20,537 nt of DNA from Clostridia bacterium (GTDB lineage Bacteria; Bacillota; Clostridia; Oscillospirales; CAG-272): positions 1 through 20,537 of the forward strand of contig JAFTMU010000110.1 of the NCBI GenBank assembly GCA_017452215.1. Direction: 5' to 3'. The translations under genes were made by a program, and so were the position numbers. The notes below the pieces were generated by a model. The model did not search any database and was not told where the DNA came from. It saw nothing but the letters and a program-made list of their open reading frames with translations. Below are positions 13,169 to 18,452 of the stretch, piece by piece (positions within the stretch are counted from its first letter, which is position 1; every line of letters starts with the position of its first letter).

Positions 13169-13206
13169 ACGGATATTATTCACTTGTATGCGAATAATTA
13201 TTCATT
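13169..13206 (+). promoter_or_regulatory. Upstream pair of ARG-box-like sites
   Basis: CGAATAATTATTCA at 13191-13204 matches the 14-base ARG core TGAATAATTATTCA at 13 of 14 positions. A weaker site ends with the perfect right half ATATTATTCA (core frame 13169-13182). Their centres are 22 bases apart, close to the two-turn spacing of tandem ARG boxes. They lie about 140 bp upstream of the promoter box. Confidence 0.55.
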
Positions 13207-13326: not shown

Positions 13327-13355
13327 TTGACAAGTGAATAATTATGCAATATAAT
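13327..13355 (+). promoter_or_regulatory. Consensus promoter with an ARG box inside the spacer
   Basis: TTGACA (13327-13332) and TATAAT (13350-13355) are 17 bases apart. The spacer contains TGAATAATTATGCA (13335-13348), an ARG box differing from the symmetric core at one position (G for T). A bound ArgR hexamer would cover the RNA polymerase site, so arginine-dependent repression of the transporter operon is the natural reading. Confidence 0.7.
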
Positions 13356-13397
13356 ATCCACATACCAAAAAAACAAATTTCTATGGAGGAAATTATC

Positions 13398-14315
13398 ATG
13401 AAAAAAATCGTAAGTCTCATGCTCGCAGTCCTGATGATGATCGGCTGCGTTGCAGCATTCTCCGCATGTGCAGCCCCTACCGAGGGTGATGACGCTGATG
13501 TGGTCAAGGTCATCGACATTCCTTTGACCGAGGAAGAGTACGCCTTTGCCGTTCAAAAGGGCGACACCGAGCTGTTGAACGCTCTCAACGCTTTCATGGA
13601 AGACATCAAAGAGGACGGCACCTTTGATACGATCATCGACAAGTACTTTGGCGGCGGCACTCCCACCCCCGTCACCTCCGCTTCCGAGATGAAGACTGAC
13701 GGCAGCCAGCTGATCGTTGCTACCAACGCCGCATTCGAGCCCTTTGAATATAAGGTTGGTGAGAACTACTACGGCGTAGACATGGAGATCATGGCTCTGT
13801 TTGCAGAGTCTCTCGGAAAAGAGCTCTACATCAACAACATGGAGTTTGACGCAGTATGCCTTTCCGTTTCCGCAGCAGGCGGCTCCTATGAGGTAGACGG
13901 TGTTGACGTTCCCGTCAGCGGCGGTGTTTGCGACATCGCAGCAGCAGGTCTGACCGTCAGCGAGGACCGTGCAAAGATTCTGGATTTCTCTGCTTCCTAC
14001 TACAACGCATCCCAGATGCTCATCGTTGCAGCTGACGACACCACCTTTGATGCTTGCGAAAGCGTAGCTGACGTAGAGGCAATTCTCAACTCCTTCACCA
14101 ACTCCACCAAGGTTGGCGTACAAAACGGTACCACCGGCGCACTCTATTGCAAAGGCGATGAGGACTGGGGCTTTGACGGCTTTGCATTTGAGACCGTAGG
14201 CTACAACTCCGGTGCTCTGGCAGTACAGAACATCATCAACGGCAACGTCAAGTTCGTAATTATCGACGAGGGTCCCGCAAAGGCAATCGTTGAGAACGTA
14301 AACGAGGCCAACTGA
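13398..14315 (+). CDS. Amino-acid ABC transporter substrate-binding lipoprotein, apparently circularly permuted
   Basis: A family 3 solute-binding protein (SBP_bac_3), 305 residues, that captures polar amino acids outside the membrane for the permease and ATPase encoded next. Residues 1-23 form a signal peptide ending FSA-C24, a lipobox. The order of the mature part is unusual. Residues 36-86, from VKVIDIPLTEEEYAFAV through the helix ending GTFDTIIDKYF, look like the C-terminal end of the family. A Gly/Thr/Pro linker (86-103) follows, then the normal N-terminal start QLIVATNAAFEPFEY and the rest of both lobes (CDIAAAGLTVSEDRA, KVGVQNGTTG). The protein stops just after FVIIDEGPAKAIVE, where the C-terminal segment would normally begin. 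An extra loop interrupts the usual GKYD-type turn at about 160-178. The start ATG at 13398 follows TGGAGGAAATTATC; the frame is open 54 bases upstream into the promoter. Arginine or lysine as ligand is inferred from the ARG box. Confidence 0.9.
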   Translation: MKKIVSLMLAVLMMIGCVAAFSACAAPTEGDDADVVKVIDIPLTEEEYAFAVQKGDTELLNALNAFMEDIKEDGTFDTIIDKYFGGGTPTPVTSASEMKTDGSQLIVATNAAFEPFEYKVGENYYGVDMEIMALFAESLGKELYINNMEFDAVCLSVSAAGGSYEVDGVDVPVSGGVCDIAAAGLTVSEDRAKILDFSASYYNASQMLIVAADDTTFDACESVADVEAILNSFTNSTKVGVQNGTTGALYCKGDEDWGFDGFAFETVGYNSGALAVQNIINGNVKFVIIDEGPAKAIVENVNEAN

Positions 14316-14329
14316 ATCCAACGATAACG

Positions 14330-14367
14330 CACAAAACACAGGGAGAGCACTCTCCCTTGTTTTGTGT
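14330..14367 (+). terminator. Intercistronic hairpin after the binding-protein gene
   Basis: A long stem (ACAAAACA + AGGGAGA against TCTCCCT + TGTTTTGT, one bulged C) lies between the binding protein and permease genes, followed by TATTCCCCCC and no U-tract. Such hairpins usually protect the upstream message and cut downstream expression, giving more binding protein than permease. Confidence 0.6.
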
Positions 14368-14405: not shown

Positions 14406-15218
14406 ATGGAAAAGGTCAAGCGCTTTTTCAAAAAGCATTGGATGGACGTTCTGGTCATCGCCGCCGTTTGCGTAGGTCTGTTCTTCCTTTGCTACAATAT
14501 TTATTACCGATTTAATTTCGCAAAAAAATGGAATATCTTTTACGACTATTTCATTACCAATAACGGCTATAAGACCCTTTTGACCGGTATTCAGAACACG
14601 CTCATCATTGCTGTGATGGGTCTTTTGATCGGTTGCGTCATCGGTACCTTGATCGCTATCGTCAGGGTGATCCCGCCTTATAAAAAGCTGACACGCTACG
14701 CCCAGAACGTCTGCGGCATTTACGTCGCCTTCTTCCGGGGAACTCCCATCGTGGTACAGCTTTTGCTGGGATATTACATCCTTCTGCCCTTGATGGGCGT
14801 CACGCTTCCCGCCGTCACCTCCTGCGTTATCATCTTCGGACTCAACAGCGGCGCATACATCTCCGAGATCATGAGAGGCGGTATCAACTCGGTGGATCCG
14901 GGACAATTGGAGGCGGCACGTGCCGTCGGTCTCCCCTTCTCCAACTCTATGATCAAGGTAGTCGTTCCCCAAGCCATCAAGAATATTCTGCCCACCATGG
15001 GTAACGAATTCATCACCCTGATCAAGGAGACCGCAATCGTTGGTTACGTGGGCGCTGTGGATATCACCAAGGCGTTCCAGGATCAGGGCTCCAACTCTTA
15101 CGAATACATGATCCCGTATCTGATCATGGCGCTGCTTTACATCGTCCTTGTGGCGGTCATCGCATCCCTGGTCAAGCTGATGGAAAGGAGGCTGGCAAGC
15201 AATGAACGACGCAAATAA
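14406..15218 (+). CDS. Polar amino-acid ABC transporter permease (HisM/GlnP family)
   Basis: The membrane subunit of an amino-acid importer, 270 residues. An N-terminal transmembrane helix (about 14-30) precedes the BPD_transp_1 domain. The family start motif ([20 protein letters not shown], 57-76), [15 protein letters not shown] (110-124) and the ATPase-contacting EAA loop ([22 protein letters not shown], 169-190, split here for clarity: EAARAVGLP then [13 protein letters not shown]) are all visible. The start ATG at 14406 follows AAGGATATAAAA; the upstream in-frame ATG lies in the intercistronic hairpin and is rejected. Only one permease gene is present, so it would form a homodimer. It overlaps the ATPase gene by 17 bases, implying coupled translation. 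Confidence 0.93.
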
Positions 15219-15990
15219 GACCCCCCTGATCGAGGTCAAGGGACTCAAAAAAAGCTTTGGCAGTCTGGAGGTCCTCAAGGGGATCGACACCACCATTCAT
15301 CAAGGAGAAAAGATCGCCATCATCGGTCCCTCCGGTGGAGGTAAGAGCACCTTTTTGCGGTGCCTGAACTGCTTGGAGGATCCCACCGCAGGTTCGATCA
15401 TCTTTGGCGGCGAGGACATTGCCAATCCCAAGGTCAACATCAACAAGCACCGTGAGAACATCGGCATGGTGTTCCAGCAATTCAATCTGTTCAACAACAA
15501 GACCGTTCTGGAAAACATCATGATGGCTCCCGTGCATCTGCGCATCAAAAAGGCAGGCGGCATTTTTGCAAAGCCCTCTGTCAAAAAGCAGATCCGTGCG
15601 GAGGAAGCGGAAAAGGCGATGCGCCTGCTCTCCCGTATCGGCTTGGAAAACAAGGTAGGCGCCTATCCGGCCACCCTTTCGGGCGGACAAAAGCAGCGTA
15701 TTGCCATCGTGCGTGCTTTGGCAATGAACCCCCAGGTAATACTCTTTGACGAGCCCACCTCGGCTCTGGACCCCGAAATGGTTGGAGAGGTGTTGGATCT
15801 GATCAAGGATCTTGCCGATGACGGCATGACCATGGTCATCGTCACCCACGAGATGGGCTTTGCCCGTGAGGTCGCCGACCGTATTCTCTTTATTGACGGC
15901 GGCTATATCACCGAGGATCTGCCCCCGCAGCAGTTCTTCACCGCTCCCACCAACAAGCGCACGCAGGAGTTTCTTGCTAAGGTGCTGTAA
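15202..15990 (+). CDS. Polar amino-acid ABC transporter ATP-binding protein (GlnQ/HisP family)
   Basis: The motor subunit that hydrolyses ATP to drive amino-acid import, 262 residues. Walker A is GPSGGGKST (42-50), the Q-loop is at FQQF (91-94), the signature is LSGGQKQR (159-166), Walker B is [12 protein letters not shown] (179-190) and the switch histidine is H216 in VTHEM. A stretch at about 113-136 ([16 protein letters not shown]) lengthens the helical domain relative to E. coli GlnQ. The start ATG at 15202 has AAAGGAGG inside the permease gene. It is the last gene of the operon and is followed by a strong terminator. Confidence 0.96.
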
Positions 15991-16877: not shown

Positions 16878-18452
16878 TTATCCCTCTTGCAGTTCTCCAC
16901 CTGCCGCAACGGCGTCAAAGTCCTCTTCAATCTCCTTGGAGGGCGCCTTCGTCAAAAGTGAAACCACCACGATCAGGATCGAGGAGAAGATGAATGCGGG
17001 AAGCAGCTCGTAGATGGCAAACACGCCGCCAAGTCCGCTGATCACCAGCTTCCAAAGGAATACCATGCCCGCTCCGCCGATCATACCTGCAATGGCGCCT
17101 GCACGGGTGGTGCGCTTCCAGAACAGGGAGAACAGCATCAAGGGACCAAAGGTAGCGCCAAAGCCTGCCCATGCAAAGGAAACGATCTTAAAGATCACGC
17201 TGTTGGCGTCCAAAGCGATCACTGCGGCGATGATAGCGATCACAGCCAAGGTGATCCTGGATACCCACATGACCTGCTTATCGGTAGCATTCTTTTTGAT
17301 CACGCCCTGGAAGATGTTCTTGGACACCGCAGAGGCAGCGATCAAAAGATAGGAATCGGAGGAGCTGATGGTAGCCGCCAGGATACCCGCCATGATAAAG
17401 CCTGCAATGATGGGAGGCAAGGAATTGGTTACCAACGTAATAAAGATATTTTCTGCGGAAGCGCCGGTCAAGTGCGCAACGGGATACGCCTGTCTGCCTA
17501 CCAGACCGATGAATACTGCAACCGCCAAGGAGATCACCACCCATACCATAGCGATACGGCGGGAGGTTTTCAGCTCCTTTTCCTCTCTGATCGCCATAAA
17601 GCGAAGGAGCACCTGAGGCATACCAAAGTAGCCAAGTCCCCATGCCATCATGGAGCAGATGGTCAAAAAGCCGTAAGGACGTGCTTCGCCAAACAAAGCC
17701 ACGTTGCCCACCGTTGCCTGTACACCGTCGGCACCGGTCAGGGGCGTTGCCATACCGAAGAAATCAAGGAAACCGGGGATCTTTTGCGCATTTTCAAACA
17801 CGGCGCCAAGACCGCCTGCCTGCGCAATACCAATGATCACTACCACTACCAGCGCCACGATCATCACAATGCTCTGCATAAAGTCCGAAGCGCTCTCGGC
17901 AAGAAATCCGCCGATCATGGTGTACGCCACAACAAACAGAGCACCAAGGATCATCATAACCTCATAGGGGGCTCCAAAGAGCGTAGCGAACAGCTTGCCG
18001 CAGGTAACGAAGCAGCTGGAGGCGTAAACCGCAAAAAAGATCAGAATAAACACTGCCGCAATGGTCATGATCACCTTTTTCTTCTCACGGAAGCGGTTGG
18101 AGAAGAAATCCGGCAGGGTGATAGAGTTGTTTGCCCGTACACTGTAACGGCGCAATCTCTTGGAAACGATGAGCCAGTTGAAATAAGTACCGATGGCAAG
18201 ACCGATGGCAGTCCAAGCCGCATCGGCAAGACCGCACCAATAGGCAACGCCGGGAAGCCCCATCAGGAGCCAGCCGCTCATGTCCGATGCCTCAGCGCTC
18301 ATTGCCGTGACCCAAGGACCGAAGGAGCGTCCGCCCAGAAAATAGTTTGCGGAGCTTTTGTTTGCACGGCGGGCATAGTACACGCCGATGAAGATGACCG
18401 CCGCCATGTAGATGATCATGGCGATCATGGTTTGAATGCTTTTACTTGTCAT
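16878..18452 (-). CDS. Sodium/solute symporter, PutP (sodium/proline) type
   Basis: A 524-residue membrane protein of the SSS family (TC 2.A.21) with about 13 hydrophobic segments. The hallmark ASDMSGWLLMGLPG (54-67) belongs to the sodium and proline site region of PutP, and GRSFGPWVTAMS precedes it. The SSSDSYLLIA stretch in the second half (TM8/9 region) carries the conserved serines of the sodium site. The length and sequence pattern fit proline uptake driven by sodium, although the substrate is inferred from family. The start ATG at 18452 follows AGAAAGGACAAAATT. It lies 24 bases after a small membrane-protein gene and shares its promoter. No proline catabolic gene is nearby. Confidence 0.92.
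   Translation of the reverse strand: MTSKSIQTMIAMIIYMAAVIFIGVYYARRANKSSANYFLGGRSFGPWVTAMSAEASDMSGWLLMGLPGVAYWCGLADAAWTAIGLAIGTYFNWLIVSKRLRRYSVRANNSITLPDFFSNRFREKKKVIMTIAAVFILIFFAVYASSCFVTCGKLFATLFGAPYEVMMILGALFVVAYTMIGGFLAESASDFMQSIVMIVALVVVVIIGIAQAGGLGAVFENAQKIPGFLDFFGMATPLTGADGVQATVGNVALFGEARPYGFLTICSMMAWGLGYFGMPQVLLRFMAIREEKELKTSRRIAMVWVVISLAVAVFIGLVGRQAYPVAHLTGASAENIFITLVTNSLPPIIAGFIMAGILAATISSSDSYLLIAASAVSKNIFQGVIKKNATDKQVMWVSRITLAVIAIIAAVIALDANSVIFKIVSFAWAGFGATFGPLMLFSLFWKRTTRAGAIAGMIGGAGMVFLWKLVISGLGGVFAIYELLPAFIFSSILIVVVSLLTKAPSKEIEEDFDAVAAGGELQEG

Follow-up and report, generated by a model that had tools for sequence, protein, structure and literature searches.

The receptor gene and its rotated order

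The window, that is, the whole stretch of 20,537 nucleotides analyzed here (contig JAFTMU010000110.1 of the Clostridia bacterium assembly GCA_017452215.1), carries a gene for a lipoprotein of the SBP_bac_3 family of substrate-binding proteins (SBPs), followed by genes for the permease and the ATPase of an ATP-binding cassette (ABC) importer. The open reading frame (ORF) comprises positions 13398–14312 plus the stop codon on the plus strand, with an ATG start and a GGAGG motif 8 base pairs (bp) upstream. The chain of this lipoprotein is rotated relative to the SBP_bac_3 fold. We call its parts E (residues 36–86), A (residues 104–231) and B (residues 232–305); the canonical order is A-B-E, and that of the window protein is E-A-B.

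In the profile search, residues 44–85 corresponded to positions 97–131 of the 132 positions of PF00497, and positions 1–98 were matched by the downstream DNA at 13710–14066. The colinear order of the profile fails in the window protein, with positions 97–131 preceding positions 1–98, and we therefore file it as a permuted variant and not as a canonical SBP_bac_3 member, its whole-protein score being 86 bits (curated cut-off 26.4). Against solved structures, phmmer aligned query residues 105–299 to residues 12–176 of AncQR (4zv1) and query residues 36–85 to residues 183–232 of the same protein. All family segments are present once each, rotated and with the old termini joined, as expected of a natural circular permutant. 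The sequence-only reading had reached this idea from the elements PLTEEEYAFAV, GTFDTIIDKYF, IVATNAAFEPFEY and VIIDEGPAKAIV, which indeed occur once each in the places it had assigned to them, and the separate alignment of residues 36–86 to the profile end and of residues 104–305 to the profile start bears out the rotated order it had predicted. Profile order, structure alignments, a confident structural model and a large set of homologues agree on circular permutation.

Fold, binding pocket and presumed lipid anchor

AlphaFold2, run on 81 E-A-B sequences, produced a compact model with a mean predicted local distance difference test score (pLDDT) of 95.5 and a predicted template modeling (TM) score of 0.86; segment E had pLDDT values of 91–99. 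Residues 98–305 superposed at about 2 Å on solved glutamine- and arginine-binding proteins, with both lobes covered. The aligners used are sequential and did not place segment E, and it is the confidence of the model that suggests that residues 36–86 may complete lobe 1 within one chain.

Arg191 and Asp290 are invariant in the 81 aligned sequences, and the equivalents of GlnH Arg75 and Asp157 are kept in 114 of 114 E-A-B rows. We take these two, together with D10, K115 and H156, to have their usual functions in the GlnH pocket. The last three are substituted in the window protein, and glutamine is therefore not expected as its ligand. A script detected a lipobox in 110 of the 113 E-A-B ORFs that we counted, and the sequence features fit an exported, anchored protein encoded beside a permease and an ATPase.

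The operon and its control region

The features of the operon are collected in table 1. The two operator-like sites upstream of the receptor gene were assigned to the ARG-box type on the basis of a consensus that we assume to apply here, and of further sites near argG. The pattern TGNATAAWTATKCR has five sites in the window's own genome (two at the window operon, two upstream of argG, in the interval that separates it from a divergent RpiB-like ORF, and one elsewhere) and its reversed control has none. The stricter operator GMATAATTATKC occurs in that genome only at the two window-operon sites, and a single ArgR is encoded. Promoter and operator were found together in 26 of 111 E-A-B, 6 of 17 B-E-A and 3 of 24 canonical genes; among dinucleotide shuffles the corresponding counts were 0 of 555, 0 of 85 and 0 of 120. 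These data suggest that the window operon may be under arginine control through a putative ArgR site and, because ARG-box-like operators also lie beside argG in the same genome, that the ligand is likely arginine or a relative.

The fifth TGNATAAWTATKCR site lies at positions 2687–2700 of contig C376 of the own genome (G000), where nearby ORFs had no NCBIfam match at 1e-10. Near the operon, a minus-strand ORF (16878–18452) encodes a long membrane protein which, judged by eye, is similar to a sodium/solute symporter.

Table 1. Features of the permuted receptor gene and its operon (positions in the window)
Feature	Position	Strand	Basis or remark
Sigma-A type promoter TTGACA-17-TATAAT	13327..13355	+	12/12 matches
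Distal ARG-box-like palindrome CGAATAATTATTCA	13191..13204	.	Pattern search; 144 bp upstream of the proximal site
Proximal ARG-box-like operator (putative) TGAATAATTATGCA	13335..13348	.	Pattern search; in promoter spacer
Ribosome-binding site GGAGG	13385..13389	+	Sequence reading
Circularly permuted SBP_bac_3 lipoprotein, 305 amino acids (aa), order E-A-B	13398..14315	+	Profile search, structure alignments, model
Signal peptide with lipobox; lipid anchor presumed at Cys24	13398..13469	+	C24 invariant in 81 aligned sequences
Segment E, residues 36–86: canonical C-terminal strand and helices, now N-terminal	13503..13655	+	Profile, structures
Linker, residues 87–103 (17 residues), old C-terminus to old N-terminus	13656..13706	+	
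Segment A, residues 104–231: canonical N-terminal part with Arg191	13707..14090	+	
Segment B, residues 232–305: canonical middle part with Asp290; new C-terminus	14091..14312	+	
Terminator-like hairpin with T-rich tail, receptor-permease gap	14340..14357	+	Consensus match only
ABC permease, BPD_transp_1; HEQRo_perm_3TM above cut-off	14406..15218	+	Start chosen at MEKVKRFF
ABC ATPase, GlnQ/TcyN-like	15202..15990	+	Under those equivalog cut-offs

Distribution and frequency of rotated receptors

A search of genome contigs with the window protein yielded 82 confirmed loci, 80 of which were analyzed. The E-A-B order was present in 75 of the 80, all from other assemblies; the remaining five were two loci ending at a contig edge after E-A, two canonical genes and one B-E-A gene. 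The loci examined for this count held 113 distinct E-A-B ORFs, of which three run off a contig end. A permease gene followed by an ATPase gene lies downstream of 109 of the 113, and two others are without downstream DNA; other neighborhoods were seen at locus L024, where the receptor is fused to the permease, and at L134, where a B-E-A gene and then a permease gene follow. A downstream permease also accompanies 15 of 17 B-E-A ORFs.

The fusion at L024 (238–1833, genome G053) joins the E-A-B receptor in frame to the permease in a protein of 532 aa, and L214 (1093–2703, G828) holds a B-E-A receptor likewise fused in frame to a permease (537 aa); in these two fusions the link to the transporter exits the fold at another point. 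Beside a B-E-A gene, L030 (2174–3340, G015) encodes a permease-fused protein of 389 aa that by eye looks like a B-E-A receptor lacking most of lobe 1, with mainly lobe 2 left. Carriage on plasmids was considered and rejected, the 72,556 records giving a single match (32.5% over query residues 104–299, in Monoglobus pectinilyticus).

Because the canonical loci were partly hand-picked, only two evenly drawn samples, one from the own family and one from the phylum, give frequencies; a further set of 16 picked genomes gives none. In 40 genomes of the family there were 79 PF00497 ORFs, comprising 51 canonical, 26 permuted and two unclassified (L265, which is sensor-like, and G057:C21), and the permuted ORFs were spread over 20 genomes. 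Permuted ORFs were labeled by sequence order, with scripts and by reading, and canonical ones from match span; for L260, L261 and L269 the canonical label comes from reading. In 41 genomes of the phylum, leaving aside the own genome's two ORFs, we found one clear permuted ORF (L256) versus 65 full-span canonical ones; there were also 17 weak or partial matches, two of which (L266 and L267) were canonical on reading, with the other 15 left unclassified. The window protein itself matched 20 of 398 phylum genomes at 1e-15, and the 16 matches outside the order were five permuted (L208, L212, L214, L219 and L225) and 11 canonical. Unlike most relatives searched, G030 (same genus, 97% complete) and G147 (same family) had no SBP_bac_3 match.

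Repeated origins and probable re-rotation

The sequence-only reading had asked whether homologues with the same order form a lineage. Many such homologues exist; they do not make up one lineage, and other rotations occur too. We read five cut sites among the permuted proteins; the classes 2a, 2b, 2c and 3 come from inspection of the termini and not from a program. For the phylogeny, 96 proteins were rotated back to canonical order, with Escherichia coli proteins as the outgroup. The set was drawn up without the truncated L107 and L111, further ORFs with an open end (for example L112), the second SBP of the own genome (L178), the tandem arrays L137–L141, near-copies by identity thresholds, L256–L275, and L152, in which the script detected A and B only. 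This tree needs 12 layout changes, and its well-supported (starred) branches force nine changes for the canonical layout, six for E-A-B, three for cut 2a, two for cut 2c and one for cut 2b. The approximately unbiased (AU) test rejected a single E-A-B clade (p = 6.5e-53) and likewise a clade of E-A-B plus cut 2b (p = 1.4e-43). Segment A alone, which is independent of rotation, gave a tree with 13 changes, in which starred branches force four for the canonical layout and four for E-A-B, and here too the AU test rejected a single E-A-B clade (p = 1.6e-6). Repeated origin stands in the segment-A tree as well, with weaker support.

The cut 2b proteins form one clade (100/99) within a starred clade (100/96) that also contains E-A-B rows, and the forks that nest them among E-A-B proteins have values of 84/91, 88/96 and 84/70. 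Their E-to-A linker is by eye like that of E-A-B proteins. Because they are nested among E-A-B proteins and retain this linker, the cut 2b genes are probably already rotated genes that were rotated a second time. Cut 3 and cut 2c fall together in the tree (99/90), and these data suggest two clades with re-rotation, namely cut 2b and cut 2c plus cut 3.

One large clade takes in most E-A-B rows and all cut 2b rows, as would be expected if one permutation had been inherited by all members with the window's layout. We consider such a history very improbable, given the changes forced by starred branches in both trees, the AU tests and the nesting of E-A-B rows in starred canonical clades (L149 and L150; L198 and L204); on the strength of the starred branches and the AU tests, a single origin of E-A-B is ruled out. 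As for direction, the outgroup and the canonical order in the wider phylum indicate a change from canonical to permuted. The opposite history, with a permuted ancestor in this group and reversions among its canonical members, draws on L110, a canonical gene that is sister to the permuted L023 (100/99) and next to the main E-A-B clade. Reversion at this point is therefore no costlier than a second origin, and L110 could be a reversion. As a general account, however, ancestral permutation seems improbable to us: the canonical order is found in E. coli GlnH, HisJ and ArgT and in the 65 ORFs with full-span matches from the phylum, and the linker of L023 and L022 contains the C-terminal tail of L110, which fits a change from canonical to permuted.

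The probable route of permutation

Relics of the old termini were sought in the linkers of 20 permuted ORFs shown, by comparing linker halves with canonical ends and with shuffles. The linker of L023 (SFFDGTAEFTYTN) scored 82 against the tail of L110 (SFFDGTADYTYTN), the best of 60 shuffles reaching 31. In L198 and L204, the linker tails DTSLQYILDKG and DTSLQYVLDKG scored 53 and 45 against canonical N-terminal leaders (best shuffles 36 and 35), and the linker heads scored 75 and 62 against canonical C-terminal tails (best shuffles 49 and 37). Only three ORFs, L198, L204 and (by a narrow margin) L185, had a leader half that scored above its best shuffle; in the other permuted ORFs shown it was not above shuffles. 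Within the order, L137–L141 consist of two or three fused canonical SBP units in tandem plus a permease, and in G315 a B-E-A gene begins 79 bp after an E-A-B gene. On account of the linker relics, the fused canonical tandems and the G315 pair, tandem duplication with subsequent loss of the outer parts, the route already proposed from the sequence, is favored and best supported; for the window's own lineage, the relatives suggest that the same route may have been taken.

Along this route, a canonical gene would have been duplicated in tandem and lost its outer parts, an event that would be one among several of its kind in this group of Clostridia. The old C-terminal segment E would thereby have been linked to the old N-terminus of segment A, and new termini would have arisen at the point where the chain returns from lobe 2 into lobe 1. 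The ligand would be held between the two lobes as usual and then passed to the adjacent permease, and the lipid anchor would sit on the hinge side and no longer where lobe 1 starts.

Weighing the interpretation

We give a probability of about 0.86 to the reading that the gene encodes a working lipid-anchored SBP that serves an ABC importer of polar amino acids, with arginine or a close relative as its most likely substrate, and is a natural SBP_bac_3 permutant that arose via tandem duplication. Several observations weigh against parts of it. Segment E was left unplaced by the sequential aligners, the best Foldseek matches had query-normalized TM scores of only about 0.5, and the rows of the VIA alignment begin mostly at residues 96–104. 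The window protein missed the cut-offs of GlnH, ArtI and other equivalogs in the NCBIfam search, and the GlnH pocket residues D10, K115 and H156 are replaced in it by N, Q and I. The strict operator test was passed by only 26 of the 111 E-A-B genes, and also by 3 of the 24 canonical ones, and the argG sites could serve either argG or the divergent RpiB-like ORF, since they lie between the two. The tail of the window's own linker scored 26 against canonical N-terminal leaders (best shuffle 38), showing no excess, and the scores of linker heads include the end of E, so that high values alone are not relics.

An assembly join or a chimera would be a natural suspicion for a metagenome-assembled genome in 408 contigs and 78.6% complete, as the source is. 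We find it hardly conceivable, and an artifact is ruled out by independent assemblies: besides the 75 of 80 loci elsewhere with the E-A-B order, there are the receptor fused to its permease in L024 and the single-contig genome G293, which holds two permuted SBPs, the divergent E-A-B L150 and L257. Here, too, the sequence-only reading, which had named a join inside the gene as a danger to its claim, holds. The fold might instead be closed between chains, with E completing lobe 1 of another molecule in a domain-swapped dimer. The linker is short, with 17 residues, and swapped elements are described for engineered circularly permuted constructs of ribose-binding protein (PMC10601554); the monomer model is nevertheless confident along the whole chain, and we regard swapping as unlikely. 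The proposal that rotation is adaptive and not neutral, re-orienting the tethered receptor for docking, is compatible with a working permutant that arose by tandem duplication. It can appeal to the repeated origin of rotation and to the shorter tethers of permuted forms (median from Cys to first segment of 9 in 112 E-A-B and 4 in 17 B-E-A proteins versus 14 in 25 canonical ones), and tethering was raised for the Treponema pallidum permutant Tp0684 by its authors (PMC4990184). The cut sites, though, variously put the anchor on the hinge, lobe 2 or lobe 1, which suits tolerance more than one favored geometry, and an adaptive rotation appears to us possible but rather doubtful.

Comparison with known systems

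The window protein has the same segments, pocket Arg and Asp and operon partners as canonical PF00497 proteins (GlnH, HisJ, ArtJ and the substrate-binding domains of GlnP), and differs from them in that its segments are rotated, its termini lie at the hinge and its anchor is elsewhere. Natural permutation of binding proteins is already known in other families. Tp0684 (TpMglB-2; Type Ic, cluster Bc) is a lipid-anchored natural circular permutant that binds ligand and changes conformation and has relatives in gut Gram-positive bacteria; conservation of its permuted part is poor, its authors consider another origin possible and a single layout is described (PMC4990184). As described there, Tp0684 has a Type I/cluster B glucose-binding fold, which sets it apart from the window protein, whose match is to another Pfam family, and in the window group there are several cut sites and the homology of the segments is clear. 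The glycine-betaine proteins OpuAC and ProX, molybdate-binding proteins and CysB also show permuted relations, which are structural, with less than 24% identity, and lie between functional families (PMC2395249). In the window group, by contrast, permutation occurs inside one family and repeatedly, permuted and canonical proteins sharing about 40–45% identity over matched parts. Tandem SBP-SBP-permease proteins of the GlnPQ type, here represented by L137–L141, are head-to-tail units, the kind of intermediate that the duplication route needs; their units are canonical and complete and are not permutants. No report of a permuted SBP_bac_3 protein was found among the matches listed in the open-licence literature, subscription papers being outside reach. 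As far as these searches extend, the family, the number of cuts, their recurrence and the high proportion within a single bacterial family appear to be new.

Implications for the family

In our judgment, the permutations brought together in surveys mostly join distant proteins, so that the steps are hard to see. Permutation relations have been estimated to be common in structure surveys, at 16% or more (PMC2395249). In the present case, canonical, rotated and probably re-rotated versions of the same receptor occur together in one bacterial group; they are related in sequence and encoded in the same operon type. We think it likely that circular permutation is commonplace in the evolution of amino-acid binding proteins in this one family of gut Clostridia, where about a third of the SBP_bac_3 genes are rotated, at no fewer than five cut sites and through many events, including re-rotations (from E-A-B to cut 2b, and in cut 2c plus cut 3), with the anchor moving among lobe 1, hinge and lobe 2 and with pocket and transporter unchanged. 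Such moves of the anchor may affect how the receptor serves its transporter. Profile annotation breaks rotated genes into partial matches. The group offers a natural series for asking by which steps permutation proceeds, what the fold tolerates and how the position of the tether affects service to the transporter, and its several naturally tried cut sites may be of use in biosensor design.
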